This document shows, piece after piece, positions 42,392-47,614 of a DNA stretch of 64,000 bases. A program made the position numbers and the translations under genes. The DNA comes from a virus, in IMG/VR virus record IMGVR_UViG_3300022074_000015, positions 22,371 through 86,370 of that record. One strand, 5' to 3'. Positions within the stretch are counted from its first letter, which is position 1; every line of letters begins with the position of its first letter. The notes under the pieces are model-generated. The model saw only the letters and a program-made list of their open reading frames with translations. It made no database searches and was not told where the DNA came from.

Positions 42392-42411
42392 ACTAAACAA
42401 TCACCTATTGG

Positions 42412-42419
42412 TATTTAGA
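42412..42419 (-). promoter_or_regulatory. T4-type late promoter TCTAAATA for gp4 (- strand)
   Basis: TATTTAGA on the + strand reads TCTAAATA on the - strand; it would initiate around 42405 and read gp4, whose ATG is at 42384. It mirrors the + strand site at 42384. Confidence 0.5.
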
Positions 42420-43298
42420 GTGCCTAGACCATTCCCAAAGAAAATATCGCAAATATCACCAGTTTTATCTCAAGTTGCTCAGAGTTCACACTTTGTATTT
42501 GAATTTGGCGGTCTCGCTGCAAACTTAAGAAAGCACTTGAGTGATAGGGGAATGGACTATAGATTTATTAATGATAATCTATCACTATTATGTTGTAGAG
42601 CATCCTTACCTGGAAGTGGATTTGCTACTGCAGATGTCATTGGTAACTATCAAGGGGTGGCAGAAAAATTTGCTCATACAAGAACCTTTGTTCAAATTGA
42701 TTTGGATTTTTATGTTGATACCGCATATAGATCTCTTAAGTTCCTAGAACACTGGATGGAGTTTATTAGTAGTGGCACAGAAACTTCTGCTGGTGGTGTA
42801 TCTCCGCTTCGTAAAGGGTATTACTATAAAATGAGATATCCAAGTGAATATAAGTGTGATGAAACGAGGATTATAAAATTTGAGAGAGATTACAAAAGAT
42901 ACATTGAATATAGATTTTTTGGTCTTTTTCCAATATCATTAAATTCTACTCCAGTATCATATGAAGGATCAACAATATTAAAAGCAACAGCATCCTTTCA
43001 TTACGATAGATATTACTCTGGTCAATCACGATCAATAAACGAATTGTTTAGAACTGAAGGAAATAAGGAGGAAAGAGCAGAATCAAATTTTGCTCCTTCT
43101 CTATTATCTGGATTAACTCCAGGTGCTGTTTTTAGTACTGGTAATCCTTTTGGAACACTACTTAATCCTTCAGCAGCATCAAAAGCATTTAATAATGATT
43201 TGTTTGATGCGGGAACAACAATTTTATCATCATCTCAAATATACAATTCTAACTTTGTAAGTAGTAGTGGTGATGGTTTAGCTAACAGCACTAAATAA
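42420..43298 (+). CDS. gp54: gp54 baseplate tail-tube initiator
   Basis: 292 residues from GTG 42420 (a TTG at 42408 would add four residues; neither has a strong ribosome site). PRPFPKKISQISPVLSQVAQSSHFVFEFGGL, YRFINDNLSLLCCRASLPGSGFATADVIGNYQGVAEKFAHTRTFVQIDLDFYVDTAY and KATASFHYDRYYSGQS are typical of gp54, a relative of the tail-tube protein gp19 that nucleates the tube on the gp48-capped baseplate. The C-terminus is a Ser/Asn-rich extension. First gene of the long rightward tail operon. Confidence 0.88.
   Translation: MPRPFPKKISQISPVLSQVAQSSHFVFEFGGLAANLRKHLSDRGMDYRFINDNLSLLCCRASLPGSGFATADVIGNYQGVAEKFAHTRTFVQIDLDFYVDTAYRSLKFLEHWMEFISSGTETSAGGVSPLRKGYYYKMRYPSEYKCDETRIIKFERDYKRYIEYRFFGLFPISLNSTPVSYEGSTILKATASFHYDRYYSGQSRSINELFRTEGNKEERAESNFAPSLLSGLTPGAVFSTGNPFGTLLNPSAASKAFNNDLFDAGTTILSSSQIYNSNFVSSSGDGLANSTK
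43290..43297 (+). promoter_or_regulatory. T4-type late promoter ACTAAATA
   Basis: ACTAAATA at the very end of gp54, 25 nt before the ATG of gp26. Confidence 0.45.
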
Positions 43299-43322: not shown

Positions 43323-44039
43323 ATGCCTTTACCAAAAATTGCCACACCAACTTATGAGTTGGTGATACCTTCGACTAAAAAAAAGATAAAGTATAGACCA
43401 TTTTTAGTCAAGGAAGAGAAAGTTCTGATTCTTGCTATGGAGAGTGAGGATACAAAGCAGATTGCCAGTGCTGTAAAAGATGTAATCAAAAACTGCATCA
43501 TCACTAGAGGAGTTAAAGTAGAAGAATTATCCACATTCGATATTGAATATCTATTCTTAAATATTCGTGGTAAATCTGTCGGGGAAGAAGTAGAAGTTCT
43601 AATTACATGTCCAGATGATGGCACTACAAAAGTTCCAACAGTAATCGATTTAGATTCAATACAAGTTCAATATGATGAAGAACATTCCAGAGATATAAAA
43701 CTAGATGATAGTTTGACTCTAAGAATGAGATATCCCTCTATGAATGAATTTATTCAAAACAACTTCGTAGTTAGTGATGTCAATCTTGATAATACTTTTG
43801 ATATTATTACGTCATGTGTTGAACAGATTTATAGTGAAGAAGAATCTTGGTCTTCAGCAGACTGTACTGAGAAAGAACTTAAAGAATTTATTGAGCAATT
43901 AAATTCTAAACAATTTAAAGAAGTTGAAACTTTCTTCTCTACTATGCCCAAACTTTCTCATAAGTTAATTGTAACAAATCCAAATACTGGTGTTGATAAT
44001 GAGATTATTTTGGAGGGGTTAGCAAGTTTTTTCGGGTAG
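43323..44039 (+). CDS. gp26: gp26-like baseplate hub / tail assembly chaperone protein
   Basis: 238 residues (T4 gp26: 208). MPLPKIATPTYELVIPSTKKKIKYRPFLVKEEKVLILAMESEDTKQI is the signature of the T4 baseplate (gp26) family; the middle has a Cys pair-free beta part and the C-terminus a helical chaperone-like half (SADCTEKELKEFIEQLNSKQFKEVETFFSTMPKLSH). Just before the TAG stop the mRNA reads T_TTT_TTC, a -1 slippery heptamer, and the next ORF is in the -1 frame. It precedes the tape-measure-like gene, the standard position of tail assembly chaperones. Confidence 0.85.
   Translation: MPLPKIATPTYELVIPSTKKKIKYRPFLVKEEKVLILAMESEDTKQIASAVKDVIKNCIITRGVKVEELSTFDIEYLFLNIRGKSVGEEVEVLITCPDDGTTKVPTVIDLDSIQVQYDEEHSRDIKLDDSLTLRMRYPSMNEFIQNNFVVSDVNLDNTFDIITSCVEQIYSEEESWSSADCTEKELKEFIEQLNSKQFKEVETFFSTMPKLSHKLIVTNPNTGVDNEIILEGLASFFG
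44027..44033 (+). promoter_or_regulatory. Putative -1 programmed ribosomal frameshift site TTTTTTC
   Basis: The gp26 codons AGT TTT TTC GGG TAG present the heptamer T_TTT_TTC (X XXY YYZ type) at 44027-44033, 3 nt before the stop. A -1 slip gives CGG GTA GGT and continues straight into the 44042 ORF, producing a fusion of about 298 residues. This reproduces the G/GT arrangement of tail assembly chaperones in many long-tailed phages. Confidence 0.6.
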
Positions 44040-44041
44040 GT

Positions 44042-44218
44042 ATGGCTCATACAGATCTTGAGTCATACTTTAGAATTAACTTTGCTTTGATGCAACACCA
44101 TAAATACAGTTTGACAGAACTAGAAAATATGATACCTTGGGAGAAAGAAATATATCTTGCTTTCCTCCAACAATACATTGAAGAAGAAAACTTAAAGGCA
44201 CAACAGCAGAATGGTTGA
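44042..44218 (+). CDS. Short -1-frame partner of gp26 (position of T4 gp51)
   Basis: 58 residues: MAHTDLESYFRINFALMQHHKYSLTELENMIPWEKEIYLAFLQQYIEEENLK. It begins 2 nt after the gp26 stop, in the -1 frame, and overlaps the tape-measure-like gene at 44211. The form (E-x-M-I-PWE-x-E-I-Y, then a short helical tail) resembles the T part of G/GT tail chaperones. It may be made only, or mainly, as a C-terminal extension of gp26 through the TTTTTTC site. By position it corresponds to gp51 of T4, although much shorter. Confidence 0.65.
   Translation: MAHTDLESYFRINFALMQHHKYSLTELENMIPWEKEIYLAFLQQYIEEENLKAQQQNG
44099..44106 (+). promoter_or_regulatory. Possible internal late promoter CATAAATA
   Basis: CATAAATA inside the 44042 ORF, 105 nt before the tape-measure-like gene; it could raise transcription of the downstream tail genes, or be a chance match. 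Confidence 0.25.
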
Positions 44219-45731
44219 GATTTCTCCAATATTTGGTAGAGGACCTAGGATTTCTGCCTCCGCTTACACGGGCAGAGCAGTCGCTCCTATGGCGGTAGAT
44301 GCTGCTGAGACGAACACGTTAATAACAAAGAATTCATTACAACTTGGTATTGTAGCAAATCAAATTCAAGGTATGACTGTTCAAATGCAGTCATTAGCAG
44401 GATCTCTTTCAGTTATTGCTAGAAATTTTCAAGTATCACAAACACTTCAGAGACAGAAAGAACAACAAGAGATTGATTTAGAAAGAAGATTATCTGAGCA
44501 GAAATTAAGAGAAGGAAAAGAAAGCACGATTGAAAAGAAGATACAAGCAGCAGCACTAGCACCCGCACAAAGACTTGCTACAAAGGCACAATTCACTTTG
44601 GGGAGACTTCAGAATTTCTTTGTCTCCATTTTTGGTGGATGGTTATTAAATCAAGGTATTCAAACTTTACAAGCTTTGAGTGGCAATAATAAAGAAAAAC
44701 TTGAAGAAATTAAAAATAATGTGTTGAAAAATCTTGTTATTATAGGTGGAACTATGGCAGCAATTAAGTTAGGAGTTGCTGCCATACTTGGAACATTCTC
44801 ATTGCTTGGTGTTAAATTATTAGCAATAGCGGCAGTTGGTTTATTTACAAGACCTGGTAGACAATTATTGGCGTTTGTATCTGATGCTCTGAAGATTGCT
44901 GCTAATGGTATCGCTTCATTTATTGGTAGAGAACCACCATTTCCGGATGCTGGAAAATTAAAAAGTGATGATGATCCAACTTCAGCACCAAATACAAATG
45001 ATAATTCGGAACCCTCTAATGAATTAAATACTGACCCTGCATCTAATTCAAATCCAGAAATGGACGGAAAAAGCACCAATCAATGGTGGGACTTTATGGA
45101 TTTATTTTTAGATCCTGGTGAAGAAAATCCTCCTGAAACATCATCAACTACAGAAAACGGAGATCAATCAGGGAATTTAGAAGGAAAGGGTGGATCTTCA
45201 TCCTCAATCGAATCCCTTCAAAATTCTGCCAATCTTTCAGCTAATATCGCTACTAATATTATGAGTAGTATGGTTCCAAAGGATGATAAATCTGAAGGAC
45301 CAGAACCACCAGGTCCAACCAAAGAAGCAGAATCTGGTTTAGTAAAAATGACCGCTGATTTTGGCAGTGGGGAAGTTGATTTGAATAAACCAGTAGGTTC
45401 TGAAGGAAAAATTGGTAAGAAAGTTCTCGATCCTGAAACAACAGAATTTATTGAGCAAGAAAAGTATATTGGCAAATACGGAAAACTTCCACCATCTATG
45501 CTACAGTCTAATGCAAAAAGTCAAGAAGTAGCAAAGAGAGTTTCCCAACCACCACAAGAACCTGGAGTAACTGTAGTTCCATTAGCAACGGGCAGTGGGG
45601 AATCAAAACAAAGTGCCGCAACTCCTGCTGCTACTGGTTCTATTGCTTCTGTTAAAATGTATCCAACTAATAATAGTGATAATATGTACACCCTGGGTGC
45701 TATGTCTAACTTTAATGTGGTATCAGTCTGA
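44211..45731 (+). CDS. Tape-measure-like tail protein
   Basis: 506 residues. N-terminal coiled coil (about 60-115: QTLQRQKEQQEIDLERRLSEQKLREGK), then FFVSIFGGWLLNQGIQTLQAL and hydrophobic helices at about 170-235 (LVIIGGTMAAIKLGVAAILGTF, LLAIAAVGLF), and a long Pro/Ser/Asn/Glu-rich tail. Hydrophobic segments plus a coiled coil right after the tail chaperone genes fit a tape-measure component. The 45731 product has the same N-terminal plan, so the tape measure may be made of two proteins. Translational overlaps (ATG inside the preceding gene, TGATG at the end) link the operon. Confidence 0.6.
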   Translation: MVEISPIFGRGPRISASAYTGRAVAPMAVDAAETNTLITKNSLQLGIVANQIQGMTVQMQSLAGSLSVIARNFQVSQTLQRQKEQQEIDLERRLSEQKLREGKESTIEKKIQAAALAPAQRLATKAQFTLGRLQNFFVSIFGGWLLNQGIQTLQALSGNNKEKLEEIKNNVLKNLVIIGGTMAAIKLGVAAILGTFSLLGVKLLAIAAVGLFTRPGRQLLAFVSDALKIAANGIASFIGREPPFPDAGKLKSDDDPTSAPNTNDNSEPSNELNTDPASNSNPEMDGKSTNQWWDFMDLFLDPGEENPPETSSTTENGDQSGNLEGKGGSSSSIESLQNSANLSANIATNIMSSMVPKDDKSEGPEPPGPTKEAESGLVKMTADFGSGEVDLNKPVGSEGKIGKKVLDPETTEFIEQEKYIGKYGKLPPSMLQSNAKSQEVAKRVSQPPQEPGVTVVPLATGSGESKQSAATPAATGSIASVKMYPTNNSDNMYTLGAMSNFNVVSV

Positions 45732-47614
45732 TGGCAATAAAAAAATCTCTTCTTGGTAATAGTAACACTATTGAAACCATTCAAAATTCTATTAATGCTT
45801 TTGGCGTGAGTTTACGTGCTGCCAATGCCACTTCCTCTCAAATAATTCGTGGATTCACCGAAGGCAATAGACAGAGAAGAAACTCAATAATAAAAAGAAG
45901 AGAATTATTCTCAAAAAGAAGAGAAGCAGTTAGAAGAAGGGAAAAAGAAGATCAAATAGAAGCATCTAGAGTAGGTGGTATTTTTAGAAGAACCGCTAAA
46001 GTTATAGGCAGCAGCACAAAAGGGTTCCTTGGTAGGATCATGGATTTTATCGGGACAATTTTGGTTGGATGGATTGTTACTAATCTACCAGTTATAATCG
46101 ATACAGTCCAAGATCTTATTGGTAGAATACAAAAAGCTGCTGGAATATTAAAGAATTGGTTTGAAGGAACAATAAACTTTTTTACAGGATTTACATCTAA
46201 TCTTGGTGATATAGCAACAAGAGCATTTAGTTTTGATTTCTTAGGTCAAAAGAAACAAATTGAAGAAGCATCTGATAAAGCAAAATCTGGTGCTCAAGCA
46301 GTTACTAGAGACTTTTTAGGATTTGAACAAGCACTGAGGAATTTTGATTTATTCAAGATTCTTGGTGATACTGCTAAAAAAATATTGGGATTTGAGGTTG
46401 AAGATCCTGAGACTCCTAGCTCTGGACAACAGGGACAAGGACAAGGACAACAGGGGCAAGGACAGCAAGGATCAGACCCGATTCCTTCAGGTGGTAAAGC
46501 AAGTCCTGAACAAATAGCAAGAATTGCTAAAACGGCAGGTATTCCAGAAAAGAACATTCCAACAATGGTTTCAATTGCGTTGGCAGAGTCTGGTGGTAAT
46601 ATTGGTGCAAGATACAATCCTGATGGAAATACTGGAGAGGATTCTTATGGATTATGGCAAATCAACATGGATCCTAGATATGCTGATGAGAGATTAAAAT
46701 TATTTGGTATAGATAGCAAGAAAGAATTATTTAATCCCGTCACAAATGCTAAGGCTGCTTATGAAATATTTAAACAACAGGGGTTTGATGCTTGGACTGT
46801 TTATCGCACTGGTAAGTATCGAGACTTTTTGCCTGCTGCCAAAAAAGCAGCAAGTGCTAGCACTCAACCAACCATTTCCAGAGATGTTGAAGATAGCACT
46901 AGATACAAAGTAAATGATGATGTTACTCAATTACTTGGTGGTCAATCTCAAGCAATAATTACCTCAACGAAAGGTATGCAGGAAAGTTTTAGAACAAAAC
47001 CACATGGAGGTATTGATATTGCTTGTGCTGCAGGATTGTTTATTTCACTCACCGCCGATGCTGAAGCAGTTGGAACTAAGAGCGGTGGGGGATATGGTAA
47101 TGTTATAGATGTTTGGGTTCCATCCCTTGGTGTTCAACTGAGATTTGCACATAATAGTAGAATACTTATATCATCAGGTAAAATTCCAGCAGGAACTTCA
47201 TTTGCAATCACTGGTTCTACGGGTCGTTCCACTGGACCACATATCCATTTGGAGGCATCTTCTGAAAGAGGTTCGACAAATTATGGTGGCAATATGGTTC
47301 CGGCACCTTATGTTTCTCTGATACGTCTAACAAAGGCAAAGATTGAAGGTAAAAAATCTACCACACCAGAAATGTCTAATGGAAGCGGTGGACAATCATT
47401 AAACATTGAAGGTGGTGCGAGTAGAAGAGAGGTTGCTCAGGAAGTTACACCAGAAAAGAAAGGATCTATTATCACTGTTCCAATTCCATCAGGATCCTCT
47501 CCTTCCGCACCAATGACTCAATCCAGTAGTGGAGAATCTATTTCCATTCCTAGCGGAAATACGTTAAATAGTTTTATTACAAAGACACTTCTTAGAGAGT
47601 TAGAATACGTATAA
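45731..47614 (+). CDS. Tape-measure-like tail lysin with SLT transglycosylase and M23 peptidase domains
   Basis: 627 residues. The N-terminal Arg/Glu-rich coiled coil (RRRNSIIKRRELFSKRREAVRRREKE) and FIGTILVGWIVTNLPVIID helix mirror the preceding gene. A QGQGQQGQGQQG linker (about 230-247) leads to a lytic transglycosylase domain with catalytic Glu286 (ALAESGGN) and YGLWQIN at 306-312. A Zn endopeptidase M23 domain follows, with H425-x3-D429 (HGGID), H474 and H504-x-H506 (GPHIHLE). Together they would cut both glycan and peptide bonds of the peptidoglycan during DNA entry. T4 uses the gp5 lysozyme instead. Confidence 0.85.
   Translation: MAIKKSLLGNSNTIETIQNSINAFGVSLRAANATSSQIIRGFTEGNRQRRNSIIKRRELFSKRREAVRRREKEDQIEASRVGGIFRRTAKVIGSSTKGFLGRIMDFIGTILVGWIVTNLPVIIDTVQDLIGRIQKAAGILKNWFEGTINFFTGFTSNLGDIATRAFSFDFLGQKKQIEEASDKAKSGAQAVTRDFLGFEQALRNFDLFKILGDTAKKILGFEVEDPETPSSGQQGQGQGQQGQGQQGSDPIPSGGKASPEQIARIAKTAGIPEKNIPTMVSIALAESGGNIGARYNPDGNTGEDSYGLWQINMDPRYADERLKLFGIDSKKELFNPVTNAKAAYEIFKQQGFDAWTVYRTGKYRDFLPAAKKAASASTQPTISRDVEDSTRYKVNDDVTQLLGGQSQAIITSTKGMQESFRTKPHGGIDIACAAGLFISLTADAEAVGTKSGGGYGNVIDVWVPSLGVQLRFAHNSRILISSGKIPAGTSFAITGSTGRSTGPHIHLEASSERGSTNYGGNMVPAPYVSLIRLTKAKIEGKKSTTPEMSNGSGGQSLNIEGGASRREVAQEVTPEKKGSIITVPIPSGSSPSAPMTQSSSGESISIPSGNTLNSFITKTLLRELEYV

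Follow-up and report, generated by a model that had tools for sequence, protein, structure and literature searches.

The stretch of DNA analysed here, referred to as the window (64,000 nucleotides), lies within an 86,370-base virus record (IMG/VR IMGVR_UViG_3300022074_000015) of a marine T4-like phage that is probably a cyanophage. It raises the question of how a 58-residue gp51-like ORF, placed just after gp26 and in its -1 frame, is expressed. The features that bear on this question are the following.

42408..43298, + strand: tail tube gene, directly upstream of gp26 (phrog_45, PF23849)
43323..44039, + strand: gp26, candidate short tail assembly chaperone (TAC-N), 238 aa (PF12322 / phrog_150)
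44012..44018, + strand: Shine-Dalgarno (SD)-like GGAGGGG, with an 8-nt spacer to the heptamer (anti-SD pairing minimum across relatives)
44027..44033, + strand: slippery heptamer T_TTT_TTC, predicted -1 frameshift site (sequence, conservation, synonymous constraint)
44037..44039, + strand: gp26 stop codon TAG in the zero frame, its last two bases being the first two of the stem (sequence)
44038..44070, + strand: stem-loop of 12 bp with a 9-nt loop, arms 44038-44049 (5') and 44059-44070 (3') (folding, synonymous conservation)
44042..44218, + strand: gp51-like ORF, 58 aa, -1 frame, candidate C-terminal domain of a long chaperone (TAC-C; phrog_634)
44211..45731, + strand: 506-aa ORF directly 3' of the gp51-like ORF, tape-measure-like by position only

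The junction between the two frames reads ...TTG GAG GGG TTA GCA AGT TTT TTC GGG TAG G TATGG... An earlier note on this DNA had described gp26 as ending in AGT TTT TTC GGG TAG, with T_TTT_TTC one codon before the stop, and had placed the following ORF exactly in the -1 frame relative to gp26. Both observations were confirmed, with the heptamer mapping to 44027-44033, the single codon GGG lying between it and the stop, and the ORF spanning 44042-44218. Specifically, the -1 frame at the 3' end of gp26 is open from 44003, and in the fusion form the gp51-like part would start at the CGG codon 44033-44035; the fusion of about 298 residues that had been anticipated computes to 237 + RVG + 58 = 298 residues. 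Window ORFs of at least 150 codons contain 7 in-phase T_TTT_TTN sites in 17,670 codons, and the one at 44027-44033 is the sole site among the 7 that lies no more than 70 codons from a stop.

Both gp26 and the gp51-like ORF are homologous in sequence to the T4 gp26/gp51 family (PF12322, phrog_150, phrog_634). In addition, the gp51-like ORF matches phrog_150 at columns 239-278, which immediately follow the stretch that gp26 matches. The 86-kb record, itself a fragment, was searched for another PF12322 gene and none was found; gp26 is its single one. The structure model of gp26 (pLDDT 88.5) was built from the window and contig proteins, with one isolate row from the annotated collection left out. 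A PDB fold search with this model gave nothing significant, the HK97 chaperone 2ob9 being at rank 3 with E 0.72 and YqbN 3klu falling below significance; a profile of gp26 searched against PDB sequences gave chance matches only, and an Rfam search of the gp26/gp51 junction returned nothing. As for the downstream side, the -1 ORF had been said to precede a tape-measure-like gene directly. It does adjoin the 506-aa ORF, whose likeness to a tape measure is one of position only, with no PHROG match and only a weak Pfam match below the cut-off. Further downstream lies a transglycosylase/M23 peptidase ORF (45731-47614, 627 aa, SLT and M23 domains), which overlaps the 506-aa ORF end to start. In other cyanophages, one ORF comes straight after gp51 and is annotated as endolysin, peptidase or hypothetical.

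The locus was compared across 286 loci including the window (contigs, isolates and distant contigs), with 92 representatives at 80% identity. The partner domain is found downstream of gp26 in 276 of the 286 loci and lies in the -1 frame in 276/276, which rules out chance; related sequences are not independent, and these conservation counts were not converted to a probability. The check proposed in the earlier note, namely conservation of the heptamer and of the -1 register among relatives, gave a clear outcome: 274 of the 276 loci keep T_TTT_TTN, its spacing to the partner domain being constant, and the zero-frame gp26 stop floats 0-8 codons 3' of the heptamer. In contigs L181, L207, L226, L227, L229, L241 and L275 this stop is found 8 codons past the heptamer, with the heptamer-partner position unchanged. 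All of the 80 closest contigs carry TTTTTTCG before the gp26 stop, with the partner at -1 wherever it can be aligned. The heptamer and the -1 register span marine contigs, cyanophages and Aeromonas, Vibrio, Stenotrophomonas and Sinorhizobium phages, and among the 92 representatives the heptamer is absent from just T4, Vibrio D503 and Vibrio YC. An in-frame gp26-gp51 fusion at the same locus was sought in 280 loci and none was found. In Vibrio phages D503 (L091, ~2217) and YC (L092, ~2214) the partner is in the -1 frame yet the slippery heptamer is missing, and stop and start overlap as TAATG; this suggests a third expression mode (coupled initiation) or a non-standard slip.

The heptamer is flanked on both sides by candidate stimulatory elements. 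Upstream, the anti-SD pairing energy reaches its minimum exactly at the position of GGAGGGG, with a mean of -5.5 kcal/mol across representatives, and the Glu codon within this element is GAG in 60/67 clade sequences versus 29% elsewhere. Downstream, the stem-loop begins 4 nt 3' of the heptamer and encloses the ATG at 44042. Folding of this region gives a z of -4.3 in the window and a mean z of -2.4 over 88 representatives, versus -0.3 for a control region. Synonymous variation is absent from the stem codons GCT, GAG, TCA and TAC in the window clade, and the flanking and loop codons vary. The stem-loop is strong in some lineages only, and elsewhere different hairpins, or none, occupy the same position. 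By its sequence anatomy, the locus contains a dnaX-like three-element cassette made of an SD-like element, a heptamer and a downstream stem-loop. In E. coli dnaX these three elements are found with similar spacings, and the heptamer and the product differ from those considered here.

All together, these data argue strongly that gp26 and gp26-gp51 are very probably made by -1 slippage at T_TTT_TTC as the short and long tail assembly chaperones. From the sequence we infer that slippage occurs at a rate such that most ribosomes would pass the heptamer and end at TAG, yielding the 238-aa gp26. A minority would slip by -1, both tRNAs re-pairing on TTT/TTT, aided by pairing of the SD-like element with 16S rRNA 8 nt upstream of the heptamer and by the 12-bp stem-loop 4 nt downstream of it. 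The slipped ribosomes would then read on in the -1 frame to give the fusion of ~298 aa. As for lambda gpG/gpGT, the gp26 part is predicted to coat the tape-measure protein, and tail-tube subunits would be recruited by the C-terminal part of the long form.

Could the T-run and the register be explained otherwise? Two unrelated overlapping genes might keep both only through protein constraint, and the Phe-Phe at the end of gp26 is indeed conserved in the window clade. However, these residues are encoded by TTT TTC in 67/67 window-clade sequences, compared to 451 TTT:252 TTC at other Phe codons, and in relatives the second residue becomes Leu (TTA) with the heptamer still slippery, so that this explanation has a next to negligible probability. 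Moreover, among the last 80 gp26 codons of the window clade, only the two heptamer codons combine a conserved amino acid with a complete lack of synonymous variation. The codon preceding the heptamer is of 8 kinds (AGT, AAT, GAT, TCT, GCT, CGT, CAT, ACT) and ends in T in 89/89 representatives. In the same 89, the last heptamer base is C in 59, A in 20, T in 10 and G in none; elsewhere, TTG makes up a third of TTA+TTG. The absence of G also bears on transcriptional slippage at the T6 run, by which mRNAs one base short would be read normally into the fusion: polymerase slippage would allow G at this position. The 6-T run that it calls for is present (7 in some relatives), but six T is short for efficient polymerase slippage, and a T-run alone needs no X_XXY_YYZ phase, SD-like element or stem. 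We consider transcriptional slippage very improbable.

Translation of gp51 could instead depend on termination at TAG and a restart at the ATG 2 nt on, giving a separate, coupled product and no fusion. The ATG at 44042 is invariant in the window clade, and stop/start overlaps (TAATG, TGATG) occur in some Vibrio and Stenotrophomonas relatives. This ATG, however, sits in the 5' arm of the 12-bp stem, and the strong ribosome site of its own that the earlier note had counted against frameshifting is not seen: there is no well-spaced SD, and a weak SD-like GGTAGG ends just 1-2 nt upstream. In addition, the opening 16 codons of the -1 ORF lack an ATG in about half of the representatives (45/91), including isolates such as S-RSM4 and Aeromonas AsFcp_2, and many have no ATG, GTG or TTG at all; even where start codons are missing, the residues immediately following the slip (e.g. 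FFRIALSHDSLENYY) are conserved. Frameshifting is therefore the simplest route to the -1 ORF product. Reinitiation also leaves the invariant T_TTT_TTN and its silent sites unexplained, and as the sole mechanism it appears quite improbable. It may nonetheless add some free gp51, which in the window clade could also be made from the ATG at 44042. A composite scheme, in which normal reading gives gp26, the slip gives gp26-gp51, a restart at the hairpin-hidden ATG gives free gp51 and the hairpin sets the ratio of the three, is rather unlikely.

Returning to -1 slippage as the preferred reading, the comparison with T4 is informative. T4 gp26 and T4 gp51 both carry PF12322. In T4 gp51, PF12322 covers residues 2-200, the partner domain residues 200-246 and phrog_150 residues 3-247. 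The segment 200-246 matches the partner domain with E 1e-8 in a two-sequence search and an hhalign probability of 94%, and the match begins at the slip residue. Since, moreover, the T4 genes are separate, T4 encodes the long form directly. Judging from these alignments, T4 gp51 is itself a naturally occurring in-frame fusion, with the frameshift residue as the point at which the partner domain is gained. T4 thus has a separate gene for each form, the two being on opposite strands, and no frameshift, whereas here one locus carries a slip site; the gene layout of Stenotrophomonas phage IME13 is the same as that of T4.

As to other known systems, the earlier note's analogy with the G/GT tail-chaperone layout holds by gene order and two-form architecture: as in lambda, there is a candidate short chaperone gene, a predicted -1 slip site near its 3' end, a partner domain, and a position between the tail tube gene and a large ORF that, by its position, would be the next tail gene. 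The lambda slippery sequence differs from T_TTT_TTC, and a sequence relation to lambda G/GT is not demonstrated here. Lambda gpG/gpGT and the G/GT frameshifts of other long-tailed phages (Xu, Hendrix & Duda 2004) are reviewed in PMC5009743 (2016), which describes G-T frameshifting as conserved in long-tailed phages except T4. Marine vibriophage and cyanophage gp51 proteins were reported to be short of ~200 N-terminal residues (PMC3037559, 2010; Sullivan et al. 2010). Two articles cite Vladimirov, Gautam & Davidson (Virology 2022): PMC10885494 on some T4-like phages having the short and the fused form as separate genes, and PMC12846349 on poly-T slippery sequences in T4-like phage chaperone genes. 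The 2022 article is reported to have assigned these same genes as tail assembly chaperones and, as cited, shares with the present locus the idea of short and long forms and the poly-T slippery sequence. On the same basis the mechanism was therefore already known, and the hint of novelty for the gp26/gp51 pair in the earlier note is not supported, chaperone frameshifting with poly-T sites having been proposed for T4-like phages in 2022. The flanking elements and the clade analysed here may be additions to what was known. The abstract of the 2022 article is said to name T4 genes 26 and 51 and to present frameshifting as conserved in several T4-like groups.

The finding also has consequences for annotation, since gp51 is misannotated or unannotated in several deposited genomes. 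In metaG-MbCM1, S-CAM1, an ACG-2014d isolate and AsFcp_2 (L286, L287, L288 and L090) gp51 is unannotated and the -1 frame domain is present. In Syn1 (L083, 2268-2399) and S-RSM4 (L085, 2265-2399) the annotated gp51 starts only at a late ATG inside the ORF, and the conserved residues from the frameshift site up to that ATG are lost. Frameshifting would account for cyanophage gp51 having seemed truncated by ~200 residues (Sullivan et al. 2010). In conclusion, the locus represents a well-supported sequence case in which many T4-like phages, including cyanophages and Vibrio, Aeromonas, Sinorhizobium and Stenotrophomonas phages, would obtain their chaperone pair via frameshifting, and T4 via two genes.
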